IMG/VR virus record: IMGVR_UViG_3300031673_000164 | Location: 1-41,042 of that record | Reading direction: 5' to 3' (one strand) | Length of the DNA: 41,042 bases | Source of the DNA: a virus | In this document: one piece after another, positions 29,868 through 33,568 of the stretch | How the letters are laid out: the number at the start of each line of letters is the position of its first letter | Position numbering within the stretch: the stretch's first letter is position 1 | Program-made: the position numbers and the translations under genes | The notes under the pieces: model-generated | What the model was told of the DNA's origin: nothing | The model's database searches: none | What the model saw: the letters and a program-made list of their open reading frames with translations, nothing else

Positions 29868-31241
29868 ATGGCAGAAGACACGAAGGTTGACCTGATGGGT
29901 GAGGCTGGCGTCAGCGGACTACAGGTGTCCGGCGGCCTGCCTAGCGACCAGCCAATGAGGCAGCTCAAGGGCACCCTGGCTGTGAAGGTCTGGACGGAGA
30001 TGAGCCGCTATGACCCCGTGGTGGGCGCTGGCCTGTTCGCCATCGAGATGCTCGCCCGTCAGGTGCCGTGGCGCGTGGAGGCGGGAGGTGACGGCCCCCA
30101 GGCCGCGGAGCAGGTCGAGTTCGTGGAGGGCTGCATGGAGGACATGAGCCATTCGTGGACGGACATGCTCGGTGAGATCCTGACCTTCCTCGTCTACGGC
30201 TGGGAGTGGTCCGAACTCGTCTACAAGAAGCGCGCGGGTCCGGTCAAGGACTCGCCCGGCTCCTCGAGCAAGTACACGGACGGCCGGATTGGCTGGCGCA
30301 AGATCACGGGCCGCTCCCAGGAGACACGCGACCACTTCGTGTTTGACGACTCGAACGGCGTCACGGCCATGGTCCAGCGCGACCCGAACCGGGGGCTGGT
30401 CTACACGATCCCGATTGAGAAGAGTCTGCTATTCCGCACGACGGCGGCCAAGGGCAATCCCGAGGGGCGCAGCCTGCTGGAGCGGGCGTTCACGTCCTGG
30501 TACATGAAGAAGCGCATCCAGGACATTGAGGCCATCAGCATCGAGCGGGGGCCGGGGCTGCCGGTGATGTGGGTTCCGCCGCAGATCACGGCATCGAGCG
30601 CATCGTCGGATGACAGGGCGCGTTATGAGACGTTCCTGCTAACCGCAACGCGCATACGCAACGATGAGATGAAGGGCCTCGTCATGCCGCTGGCCTACGA
30701 CGCGCTCGGCAACAAGCTCTATGACTTCGAGTTGAAGTCCGCCACCGGGGAACAGCGGGTGGACACCGACCCGGTGGTCAAGCGGTATGACCAGCGCATC
30801 GCCGCCACGCTGCTGGCCGATTTCATTCTGCTAGGTACCGATTCGGGCAACCGCGCGCTGAGCACCGACAAGAGCGAGTTGTTCACCATCGCCATGAACA
30901 GCGTGCTGGACGAGGTGGCCGAAACATTCAACCGCCACGCCATCCCACGGCTCATGGCCCTGAACGGGTGGGGCACAGAGGAATGCCCGACCCTGGCCCA
31001 CGGTGGCGTGGAGCGGGTGGACCTGGACGTGCTCGGTACGTTCATCGAGCGGCTGTCCCGGGCCGGTGCCCCGCTGTTCCCTGACGACGTGCTGGAGGAC
31101 CACCTGCGCGAAGCCGCACGGCTGCCTGCGGTACCGGAGGGCGAGCGTGCGCTCCGGCCGCCGCCGCCCATGCCAGAGGCCCCGGCGCCCGTGGTCGTGC
31201 CGGGTGAGCCCGACGTGCCGGGTGAGGAAGCGCCCGCGTGA
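29868..31241 (+). CDS. Portal protein (DUF935/Mu gp29-like)
   Basis: This 457-residue protein follows the terminase after a 49-base gap without clear promoter. Typical segments are MSRYDPVVGAGLFAIEML (about 45-62), WSELVYKKR, a central IPIEKSLLFRTTAAKGNPEG, then LLERAF, SWYMKKRIQDIEAISIER, and a C-terminal FILLGTDSGNRALSTDKSELF. Portals form the dodecameric DNA channel at one vertex. The C-terminus is Pro/Ala-rich. Position between TerL and the gpF-like protein is standard for Mu-like and related head modules. Confidence 0.82.
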   Translation: MAEDTKVDLMGEAGVSGLQVSGGLPSDQPMRQLKGTLAVKVWTEMSRYDPVVGAGLFAIEMLARQVPWRVEAGGDGPQAAEQVEFVEGCMEDMSHSWTDMLGEILTFLVYGWEWSELVYKKRAGPVKDSPGSSSKYTDGRIGWRKITGRSQETRDHFVFDDSNGVTAMVQRDPNRGLVYTIPIEKSLLFRTTAAKGNPEGRSLLERAFTSWYMKKRIQDIEAISIERGPGLPVMWVPPQITASSASSDDRARYETFLLTATRIRNDEMKGLVMPLAYDALGNKLYDFELKSATGEQRVDTDPVVKRYDQRIAATLLADFILLGTDSGNRALSTDKSELFTIAMNSVLDEVAETFNRHAIPRLMALNGWGTEECPTLAHGGVERVDLDVLGTFIERLSRAGAPLFPDDVLEDHLREAARLPAVPEGERALRPPPPMPEAPAPVVVPGEPDVPGEEAPA

Positions 31242-33568
31242 CTTGGCTCGTGAAGGCACGGAAGACGCCGCCACGCATGGACGCGCTCTGGCGCGAAACG
31301 CTCGCCGCCTACGAGCGCATGGGCATAAAGCTGTATCCGGGCATTGAGCAGGCGCTGTTGCAGGCCATGAAGTCCACGAGCATGGCGCGGATCGCCGCCG
31401 CCTTCGAGGCGGGTAACTGGGCGCTGGTCGAGGGCGCGGTGGACTGGCAGACGCTGGCCGCCGCGTTGGGCCAGGAGATGGGCCCCGGGCTGCGCTCGGC
31501 CATGGAGGAGGGCGGCCGCCTCGCCCTGACCCGGATGCCTGGCACGGTCAGCATGGGCTGGCAGGTCATCGACCCGCTCGTGGTCAACTACCTGAACAGC
31601 CACCTCCCGACGCTGATCCGCGAGGTGACGGACGAAACACGGGCAGCGGTGCGACTCGCCACTCGACTGGCCTACGAGAACGGACTCGGTACCCAGGCAG
31701 CAGCTCGGGCCATCCGGTCCAGCATCGGGCTGACGCAGATGCAGGCCCGGGCCGTCACGTCGTTTCGGCAAGGCGTCATTGAGGCGGCCGACCGGGACCT
31801 GGGCGTGGACTACCTGCACGAGCGGTGGGCCATGAGCCGGGACGTGGTGCGGCGCAATGCCCAGGTGACGCTGGCGAACGCCAACCGGCTGGCCGACGCC
31901 TACCAACAGCGGGCCATCACGCAGCGCGCCCTGACCATAGCCAGGACCGAGGCGACCCGAGCCGTGACAGCCGGCCGTTCGGCGTTCTGGACCCAGGCCA
32001 TGCGCGAGGGTGCGCTCAACCCCGAATACCACGAGATCATGTGGCTGGCGTCGCCTTCGGAACGGACATGCGATATCTGTATGCGGCTCCACAAAACGAC
32101 CGTGCCGGTAGGGCAATCGTTCCCCGAGGGCGACCCGCCGATTCATCCGTCGTGTCTACCCGGCGAGGCGGTAGTAGCGCCCCGTGGTCGGATCGTGGGC
32201 GCCACGAAACGGTGGTTTCACGGCGATCTCATCATCCTCCGCTGTGCCGACGCGCTCCCACTCTCCTGCACGCCAAACCACCCGGTACTCACGCGGCACG
32301 GGTGGGTGCCGGCGGGCAGCGTGAATGTAGGTGACGAGATCGCGCACCCTGGTTTCAGTCAGGGGGTCGGGGACGGTGATGGGCAGGACGTAGATGCACC
32401 AGCCCGCATTGAGGATATAGCGGAAGCGTTCCTCCACGCGGGCGAAGTGTCTGCCGAAAAAGTGAAAGTTGCCGCCCCAGATTTCCACGGCGACGGGATC
32501 GAGGGCCAGGTCGCAATTGTAGGGACCTATCGCGAGTTGCTGGACGGGATCGAGCCCGTGGGCCTGGAGCATGCGCATAGCGTCGAGTTCCAGGGGCGAA
32601 ACGTTCGGGAGGGTGCGCTGCTTCCCGAGGGCGATGCTGCACTTATGCAAGAATCCCTGGGGTTGGCCTCGGACAGCATCGTGGGCGGCGGACACCTGGA
32701 AGTGGCGCTGGGTGGGGGTCCGGTGGCTCCACTTCAGCAACTCAGCCTCACTACGCCCCCGGGGTTGAATGCCGAGGGCGAGCAGGCGCTTGCGGATGGT
32801 CCTCCGGTCGACGTGGAGGTGCTTGGCGACCTGCAACTCGGACCACTCCATGTCGCGGTAGAGTTGCGCGATTACCGTTTCGGGCAAGTCCTTCTTCAAA
32901 GCCATCGCCACTTCTCCGGTTGGGTGTATAACCTCGAAACCACTTCAAGTTACTACATCGCAGACGGTTACGCTACCCACAACTGCCGTTGTGACACACG
33001 CATCGTGGACACGCGCAAGACGCGGAGCGCGGCAGGCCAGCGCACGGACGCGCGGATCCGCCAGATCGAGGAAGAACGGGCAGCCCGCGAGAACGCACGA
33101 CGGGGGGCGGCGGCCCGAGGCACAACCGCCCCGGCTGGACTCCGAGAAGCTTTGGCATCGCTTCCCGATGAGCCCGCGACGTTCCGGGCCTTTCATGCCA
33201 CGGCCGGGGAGGAGTTTGATGTCTTCGACCCCGCACGTTTTGGGACGGGAACGGATCCCGGTTACTTGGGACGCGGAGCATATCTATCAACCGACCCGAA
33301 CATCGCCGGAAAGGGTCAGAAGACGCTCGCCTTCGATGTAACCCTGAAGAATCCACTCCGCCTGGCGGCGGACAAGTGGGGCATGGACAAAGAGGCCCTC
33401 GTGAGGGGTGCACTTGATCTGACGCCAACAGCAACCGCGCGTGATGTTACCGCCGCCCTGCACCGCGCCGGGTACGATAGCGTGATGTTGGACTATTCGC
33501 GGCTGGGGTACCACCACCAGGAGATCATGGTGCCGAACCCGGAGGCTGCGCGGCGCGTCAAGCCGTGA
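31238..33568 (+). CDS. Mu gpF-like minor head protein with intein and C-terminal ART domain
   Basis: GTG 31238 gives 776 codons. Residues 1-305 are a gpF/SPP1 gp7-type head morphogenesis domain, with ALTIARTEATRAVTAGR (about 230-246) and TCDICMRLH before PIHPS. The conserved HP-x-C-R-C motif is interrupted at Ser305/Cys306 by a 277-residue intein (306-582) and resumes with CRC at 583. After splicing the protein would be 499 residues. Residues about 645-770 form an ADP-ribosyltransferase-like (ART-PolyVal) domain: FHAT with His653, GRGAYLST with Tyr682, and a final HQEIMV with Glu762, an H-Y-E triad. Minor head proteins can be injected, so the ART may act on host targets. It overlaps the portal by GTGA. 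Confidence 0.88.
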   Translation: MTWLVKARKTPPRMDALWRETLAAYERMGIKLYPGIEQALLQAMKSTSMARIAAAFEAGNWALVEGAVDWQTLAAALGQEMGPGLRSAMEEGGRLALTRMPGTVSMGWQVIDPLVVNYLNSHLPTLIREVTDETRAAVRLATRLAYENGLGTQAAARAIRSSIGLTQMQARAVTSFRQGVIEAADRDLGVDYLHERWAMSRDVVRRNAQVTLANANRLADAYQQRAITQRALTIARTEATRAVTAGRSAFWTQAMREGALNPEYHEIMWLASPSERTCDICMRLHKTTVPVGQSFPEGDPPIHPSCLPGEAVVAPRGRIVGATKRWFHGDLIILRCADALPLSCTPNHPVLTRHGWVPAGSVNVGDEIAHPGFSQGVGDGDGQDVDAPARIEDIAEAFLHAGEVSAEKVKVAAPDFHGDGIEGQVAIVGTYRELLDGIEPVGLEHAHSVEFQGRNVREGALLPEGDAALMQESLGLASDSIVGGGHLEVALGGGPVAPLQQLSLTTPPGLNAEGEQALADGPPVDVEVLGDLQLGPLHVAVELRDYRFGQVLLQSHRHFSGWVYNLETTSSYYIADGYATHNCRCDTRIVDTRKTRSAAGQRTDARIRQIEEERAARENARRGAAARGTTAPAGLREALASLPDEPATFRAFHATAGEEFDVFDPARFGTGTDPGYLGRGAYLSTDPNIAGKGQKTLAFDVTLKNPLRLAADKWGMDKEALVRGALDLTPTATARDVTAALHRAGYDSVMLDYSRLGYHHQEIMVPNPEAARRVKP
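32153..32983 (+). mobile_element. Intein in the minor head protein
   Basis: The intein spans Cys306 to Asn582 of the precursor. Block A is CLPGEAVV with Cys1. Block B contains TPNH (345-348), the T-x-x-H site, followed by VLTRHGWVPAGSVNVGDEI. Blocks F/G read VYNLETTSSYYIADGYATHN, with the penultimate His581, Asn582 and Cys583 as the +1 nucleophile. All class 1 splicing residues are thus present. Splicing would join HPS to CRC at the conserved motif of the host domain. Between blocks B and F (about 180 residues) there is no LAGLIDADG, HNH or other sense-strand endonuclease; that stretch is the antisense shadow of the gene at 32156-32905. Confidence 0.93.
32156..32905 (-). CDS. Antisense EDxHD/Vsr-like homing endonuclease within the intein
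   Basis: The minus-strand ATG at 32905 has GGAG eight bases upstream; a GTG at 32911 is also possible. It encodes 249 residues. An N-terminal helix-turn-helix (LPETVIAQLYRDM, then LQVAKHLHVDRRTIRKRLL) is followed by a nuclease core: SPLELDAMRML with a Glu, QQLAIGPYNCDLAL with an Asp, VAVEIWGGNFHFFGRH with a Glu and two His, and RFRYILNAGW. This order matches the Vsr-related EDxHD homing endonucleases found in phage introns and split-intein loci. A C-terminal region (YRVVWRAGEW) follows. The stop (CTA on +) is the reverse complement of intein codon 2, so the gene lies wholly inside the intein. Confidence 0.85.
   Translation of the reverse strand: MALKKDLPETVIAQLYRDMEWSELQVAKHLHVDRRTIRKRLLALGIQPRGRSEAELLKWSHRTPTQRHFQVSAAHDAVRGQPQGFLHKCSIALGKQRTLPNVSPLELDAMRMLQAHGLDPVQQLAIGPYNCDLALDPVAVEIWGGNFHFFGRHFARVEERFRYILNAGWCIYVLPITVPDPLTETRVRDLVTYIHAARRHPPVPREYRVVWRAGEWERVGTAEDDEIAVKPPFRGAHDPTTGRYYRLAG

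Follow-up and report, generated by a model that had tools for sequence, protein, structure and literature searches.

An intein in a phage head gene, with an open reading frame for a putative nuclease on its complementary strand, raises the question of whether a single mobile element can have its two halves encoded in one piece of DNA, one on each strand. The locus lies in a stretch of viral DNA of 41,042 nucleotides (IMG/VR record IMGVR_UViG_3300031673_000164, positions 1 to 41,042), which was analysed as a whole and is called the window here. Inteins are understood to carry an endonuclease in frame, to have none, or to be split around one. An earlier note on this DNA had proposed another arrangement, an intact intein with its endonuclease antisense inside it. 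The computational analysis described below makes it very probable that a phage head gene in the window harbours a mobile intein with its own homing endonuclease encoded antisense, in complementary codon register, and this intein most likely represents a class of mobile inteins whose splicing protein and homing endonuclease are encoded on opposite strands.

An Intein in a gpF/MuF-like Head Gene

The plus-strand reading frame at 31238-33568 is preceded by genes for the terminase large subunit and the portal, and it matched Phage_Mu_F at 1.4e-7 and phrog_3517 at 1.3e-32. The parts of this gene and the evidence for each are as follows.

31238..33568, plus strand: head morphogenesis gene of the gpF/MuF type with a GTG start, split by the intein (Phage_Mu_F, phrog_3517)
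31238..32152, plus strand: N-extein, residues 1-305, ending in HPS (sequence)
32153..32983, plus strand: intein, 277 codons, Cys1 to Asn277 (motifs, intein profile matches, AlphaFold2 Hint halves with pLDDT above 90)
32270..32281, plus strand: intein block B, TPNH, residues 40-43 (sequence; no variation at T40 or H43 among 72 aligned inteins)
32924..32938, plus strand: intein block F, VYNLE, residues 258-262 (sequence; V258 and L261 near-invariant in the 72 aligned inteins)
32978..32986, plus strand: splice end, His276-Asn277 and the +1 Cys (sequence)
32984..33565, plus strand: C-extein, first residues CRC (relatives uninterrupted across the junction)

The HPS/CRC motif of gpF had been read as split after Ser305 by a 277-codon intein, and this reading holds, with Cys1, TPNH, VYNLE, His276-Asn277 and the +1 Cys all present in the sequence. 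The inteins of relatives end as HN/C in 112 of 157 loci and as SN/C in 37 of 157, and Cys1, T40, H43 and Asn277 were invariant or near-invariant among the aligned inteins (n = 72). A profile of the intein family matched solved inteins, among them PI-MtuI/RecA at 1.8e-11 and many others. In the AlphaFold2 model the termini of the intein form a Hint domain, with pLDDT above 90 at residues 1-60 and 241-277, and the fold matches of the model were RecA inteins with a probability of 1.00. The features of a class 1 (Cys1) intein are therefore present, namely Cys1, TxxH in block B, block F, an HN or SN end and a Cys, Ser or Thr at +1, together with the Hint fold, homology to known inteins and an exact position in a host gene of which copies without the insert exist as well. 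Judging from motifs, fold and constraint, the plus strand would give a gpF precursor, from which the intein would leave by Cys1/Asn277-Cys+1 splicing. The middle of the intein had been noted to hold no nuclease motif on the plus strand, and in the model most of residues 130-240 have pLDDT below 50, a prediction of disorder.

The intein of the window also matched phrog_15127, which is probably another intein-bearing head protein. Further along the same gene, the C-terminal part of gpF (33150-33568, FRAFHATAG...GYLGRGAYLSTDPNIAG) has, to judge by its residues, the look of a domain of the ADP-ribosyltransferase type fused to the head protein; its sole match was phrog_4700, of unknown function.

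The Endonuclease Gene on the Complementary Strand

The features assigned to the minus strand of the intein, and the stretch that is coded on both strands, are these.

32156..32905, minus strand: predicted antisense homing endonuclease gene, 249 aa (reading frame, homologues, constraint, fold model)
32914..32917, minus strand: GGAG Shine-Dalgarno, with its distance of 8 nt to the ATG of the endonuclease (sequence; Shine-Dalgarno statistics in relatives)
32777..32881, minus strand: helix-turn-helix (HTH) region (AlphaFold2 helices 11-20, 25-32 and 36-45; HTH_7 in 14 of 19 homologues)
32366..32599, minus strand: nuclease core with E108, Y131-N132-x-D134, E143, the H150 region and R162 (invariant columns, 3r3p and 3hrl alignments, 3r3p at Foldseek rank 1)
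32159..32362, both strands: dual-coded stretch, N-terminal Hint half on the plus strand and C-terminal beta-rich endonuclease part on the minus strand

The endonuclease gene begins with an ATG at 32905-32903, a GTG two codons earlier being an alternative start, and ends with a TAG at 32158-32156 that pairs with CTA, the codon for Leu2 of the intein. Its codons pair exactly, one with one, with sense codons, in register with intein codons 2-251. The GC-rich window has other long antisense reading frames, of up to 509 aa, so the length of this one is by itself no evidence of a gene.

When Pfam, NCBIfam, PHROG and PDB were searched with the single antisense sequence of the window the matches were weak (HTH_23 at 0.0029, MTES_1575 at 0.097), and profiles were needed. 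A profile of 19 antisense homologues matched the catalytic domain of I-Bth0305I (3r3p) at 8.8e-6 and 3hrl at 1.7e-4, and a profile from a larger alignment matched the same two at 1.9e-4 and 2.9e-6; many HTH proteins were also matched by the family profiles. Pfam MTES_1575 was found in 12 of the 19 homologues (best 6.6e-6) and HTH_7 in 14, and the endonucleases of the family are predicted, from sequence and model, to have one or two N-terminal HTH units as an accessory DNA-binding domain. Residues R51, Y131, N132, D134, E143, R162 and G170 are invariant and E108 and H150 near-invariant; catalytic roles for them are putative, as the H and the D134 column fall out of line with the residues of 3r3p in the alignment.

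The AlphaFold2 model of the endonuclease has a mean pLDDT of 93.8; in it, an HTH region at the N-terminus is followed by the nuclease core in the centre and by a C-terminus rich in beta structure. With this model, Foldseek placed 3r3p (I-Bth0305I) first in the PDB at a probability of 1.00, with a modest fold score (E 5.9e-3, TM-score by target 0.60), and the viral fold matches included DNA mismatch and DUF559 endonucleases. The similarity to the I-Bth0305I catalytic domain in both sequence and fold, through family profiles and the structure model, supports the assignment of the antisense protein as an EDxHD/Vsr-like nuclease. This is how the earlier note had described the 249-residue product, an HTH joined to an EDxHD/Vsr-like endonuclease, and a product without similarity to endonucleases, the outcome that it had named as adverse, was contradicted by the 3r3p and 3hrl matches and by the first-ranked fold.

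Intein residues 110-116 (32480-32500, plus strand) hold a strongly conserved (D/E)FHGD whose codons are exactly complementary to those of the nuclease motif VAVE, and the active site encoded on the minus strand is probably what keeps this sense motif conserved. Family-wide, the inteins have two main length classes; those of about 270 residues appear to correspond to one HTH unit in the antisense endonuclease, and those of about 320 residues to two.

A Large Family in Phage Head Genes

In a tblastn search of 50,697 phage records, the antisense protein matched 120 records, 81 of them with at least 80% coverage, and the sense intein matched 122. The antisense matches came from Jerseyvirus and Kagunavirus, from phages of Gordonia, Mycobacterium, Pseudomonas, Klebsiella, Vibrio, Edwardsiella and Idiomarinaceae, and from others. 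Among the matches listed, nearly all lay under a head or minor capsid gene or a gene unnamed there, and the feature annotated at that position was usually a single head or hypothetical protein. The addition of IMG/VR scans gave 276 loci with a match, 208 of them non-redundant. Genome contigs gave 2 loci only, and little was therefore learned about prophages.

Both intein ends were recognized by strict patterns in 154 of the 208 loci. N-exteins were MuF-like in the 81 loci tested, with Phage_Mu_F in 53 and, in most, matches to PHROGs for head morphogenesis, minor head or head maturation proteins, and 107 of 157 C-exteins began with C[RKQ]C. The intein with an antisense endonuclease that had been described from the window is thus confirmed, but not as a lone case: it belongs to a large family that sits mostly at the Cys-Arg-Cys motif of MuF/gpF. 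Across the endonuclease, the sense frame in codon register was open in 206 of the 208 loci, over a range of 36-71% G+C, and one open sense frame across the intein in so many loci means that these are not split inteins or fractured genes. The antisense frame, for which stops in all related inteins had been considered in the earlier note, was open in essentially all of them.

Empty Sites and Probable Homing

Of 486 phage records that matched the joined site of coliphage Snoke, 404 had at least 80% of it at a single location, so that close relatives hold empty sites by the hundred. Those listed are single uninterrupted pieces with identities of up to 91%, for example K1ind2 (90%) and XY2 (91%), and other members of Jerseyvirus and Kagunavirus carry the interruption. 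The joined site of the window gpF is likewise uninterrupted in Arthrobacter phages, such as Salgado. A second insertion site was found in Escherichia phage fEg-Eco06, where the intein lies 22 residues upstream, before CRARDG, while that of Snoke lies at HPN/CRS; the exteins of the two phages are nearly identical, and each is the empty site of the other. The intein of Mycobacterium phage Sejanus is a probable further occupant of this second site, which precedes the CRC position usual for these inteins by about 22 residues.

Two loci carry the endonuclease outside an intein. In Acinetobacter phage P1068 (L014, 2330-3223, plus strand; annotated as hypothetical WHB31326.1) and in L030 (3285-4151, plus strand), a free-standing convergent endonuclease gene lies just after an intein-free MuF gene that keeps a CKC or HPGCRC motif. 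These two are the exceptions among the 208 loci, their register sense frames being interrupted by stops. An open sense frame is therefore no inherent property of the endonuclease gene and accompanies its residence inside an intein. The free-standing copies may be an ancestral state of the antisense-endonuclease inteins, or possibly a decayed one.

Endonucleases that are 60% identical occur with exteins that share 24%, and this mismatch, the empty and occupied sites and the patchy distribution all fit homing without proving it. In such a cycle, the nuclease would most likely cut intein-free head genes at HPx/CRC, and recombination repair from the intein copy would insert the whole element in the cut gene. 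It is also conceivable, with a probability that we regard as low, that the nuclease works not in homing but in regulation of the head gene, in competition with co-infecting phages or in repair. Vsr-like and DUF559-like nucleases have varied roles, the HTH is regulator-like, and exclusion of intein-free competitors would give patterns similar to those seen; however, the gene is found inside an intein with a patchy presence among closely related head genes, the identity of the endonucleases reaches its 60% where the exteins have so little, and the nearest fold relative, I-Bth0305I, is itself a homing endonuclease.

Selection on the Two Strands

For the proposed mobile intein with an antisense homing endonuclease, the coincidence of codons means that each single-base change can be scored as synonymous or not on each strand. 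Values of dN/dS were obtained per strand from 40 independent pairs (fewer for the exteins), with kappa 2 and 95% bootstrap ranges, which are given in brackets.

N-extein: sense 0.11 (0.09-0.13), antisense 1.01 (0.84-1.23)
Intein codons 1-30: sense 0.17 (0.11-0.24), antisense 0.23 (0.15-0.33)
Block B zone: sense 0.20, antisense 0.22
Intein middle, first part: sense 0.34, antisense 0.13
Intein middle, second part: sense 0.83, antisense 0.14
Intein middle, last part: sense 0.81, antisense 0.17
Block F-G: sense 0.10, antisense 0.52 (0.27-1.17)
C-extein: sense 0.11, antisense 0.97

The exteins are therefore constrained on the sense strand only, the middle of the intein mainly on the antisense strand, and the N-terminal splicing block on both. 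A sense-guided alignment gave much the same picture, with sense values of 0.62-0.65 in the later middle zones, and alignment bias toward the antisense strand was rejected on this ground. A GC-rich artefact was rejected by low-GC homologues (36-45% GC) and codon-position tests. The same base pairs encode residues 1-66 of the intein and roughly the last 60 residues of the endonuclease, and AlphaFold2 predicts both segments to be well folded. The N-terminal splicing block is under selection on both strands, and the middle of the sense intein would be a disordered linker that mainly needs to stay open. Conservation that fits plus-strand coding alone, which would have spoken against the original proposal, was not the pattern in these related inteins.

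The choice of codons gave a similar view. On the sense strand, TTA, CTA and TCA are the codons that put a stop in the antisense frame; in the middle zone of 155 loci, 549 of them were expected from extein usage and 0 were seen. In loci below 47% G+C, none of 773 Leu and Ser codons of the endonuclease was TTA, CTA or TCA, compared with 301 of 974 in the exteins, and the sense frame is therefore kept open by selection.

An open frame might be kept for a lesser reason, if the endonuclease gene is real and the sense insert is a non-splicing one, tolerated as an open linker as has been proposed for the insertion in the ShiLan methylase. Maintenance of an open frame alone would explain the avoidance of stops, and the sense middle is nearly unconstrained and predicted to be disordered, but sense dN/dS is 0.10-0.20 in all splicing blocks, Cys1, T40, H43 and Asn277 hardly vary, the termini fold as a Hint domain in the model, and the insert is located in the conserved CRC motif, all of which make this explanation very improbable. 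Still harder to credit, and close to dismissal, is that only the plus strand codes, the antisense frame being a by-product of GC-rich codon usage and its homologues a shadow of intein conservation: long antisense frames are indeed common in the window and the sense intein matches as many as 122 phage records, but antisense dN/dS is 0.13-0.17 in the intein middle against 0.34-0.83 on the sense strand, the frame is open in phages of 36-45% GC, identity is higher for the antisense protein than for the sense middle in 655 of 656 pairs, the antisense profile matches real nucleases, and a pLDDT of 93.8 stands against a disordered sense middle.

Start and Stop Signals within the Splicing Codons

The antisense endonuclease of the proposed mobile intein shares more than its interior with the splicing protein. 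Most relatives form the antisense start codon and its Shine-Dalgarno out of the codons of the intein motif HVYNL[E/Q], and in 114 loci the start is complementary to the codon that immediately precedes VYNL, which usually encodes His. This His is encoded by CAT and CAC in a ratio of 119 to 15, compared with 294 to 497 in the extein background. For the Leu of VYNL, the codon is CTC in 125 of 169 cases, against a background of 929 in 4254, because the complement supplies the GAG of the Shine-Dalgarno. A Shine-Dalgarno was present at 126 of 159 antisense starts and at 137 of 1249 (11%) internal in-frame ATG/GTG controls, a contrast that is somewhat flattering since the start was chosen partly by its Shine-Dalgarno. 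At the other end, the antisense stop lies opposite intein codon 2 in 77 of 157 loci, and in 79 of 87 inteins with Leu2 the codon is TTA or CTA, whose complement is the antisense stop.

Block F of the intein in the window is without the His/ATG typical of most relatives, and another ATG further in serves. A scan of the window found no sigma-70 promoter-like site near the antisense start. The endonuclease would be translated separately, from an antisense message, with its start and Shine-Dalgarno inside the block F region.

Relation to Known Elements

Classical inteins with an in-frame endonuclease domain, such as PI-MtuI, have the same splicing motifs and Hint fold, but here the endonuclease is outside the spliced-out protein, and the sense middle is without a nuclease and predicted to be disordered. 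Split phage inteins with free-standing genes for EDxHD/Vsr-like endonucleases between their halves were reportedly described by Dassa and colleagues in 2009 (cited in PMC12350094). They share with the present family the nuclease fold and the association with phage inteins and differ in that the intein here is one intact reading frame, with the endonuclease on its complementary strand and overlapping a splicing block. I-Bth0305I, the EDxHD homing endonuclease of PDB 3r3p, gave the best PDB fold match and a significant profile match to the antisense nuclease domain; it was deposited as a protein of a mobile intron, not an intein, and has about 13% identity to the antisense nuclease in a comparison of the catalytic domain only.

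The nearest report found in the open-access literature is that of the ShiLan and Pacc40 insertions in phage methylases, in which a hidden, out-of-frame HNH endonuclease overlaps an in-frame insertion (PMC11855218, 2025). Those insertions are without a splicing domain, no Shine-Dalgarno was found for them, and the antisense strand is unmentioned (PMC11855218). A concealed endonuclease that overlaps an in-frame insertion in a phage gene is common to both systems, but the insert in the window has a splicing domain, and its endonuclease is antisense and is not an HNH enzyme. No description of an antisense endonuclease inside an intein was found in the open-access full texts that were searched. Inteins and EDxHD-like nucleases are each known; the antisense arrangement is strikingly different from those found described, although priority is not certain.

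It is probable, if a little less so than the reading of the window itself, that these loci form a widespread, previously undescribed class of mobile element, in which one strand encodes the splicing domain and its complement, matched exactly in codon register, the homing endonuclease, a stretch of about 200 bp codes for two folded domains that are both under selection, and block F codons double as the ribosome binding site and start of the endonuclease. As the two strands of one segment encode the two halves of the selfish element, expression of the cutter is separate from that of the head protein. The family offers a clean natural example, and an abundant one, of dual coding on opposite strands in which both products are predicted to fold. 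Coding of this kind has been debated in connection with early genes under the Rodin-Ohno hypothesis, and the set of 206 loci makes it quantitatively testable. With cultured phages among the carriers, a test of homing is practical.

The same largely unannotated two-in-one design occurs in more than 200 phages and phage fragments, and more than 100 deposited phage genomes (Jerseyvirus, Kagunavirus, and Gordonia, Pseudomonas and Vibrio phages) hold a gene that annotation has largely missed. The antisense endonuclease is unannotated in most of the Jerseyvirus, Kagunavirus and Gordonia phage genomes listed, for example MN393078, NC_031239 and MK931441.
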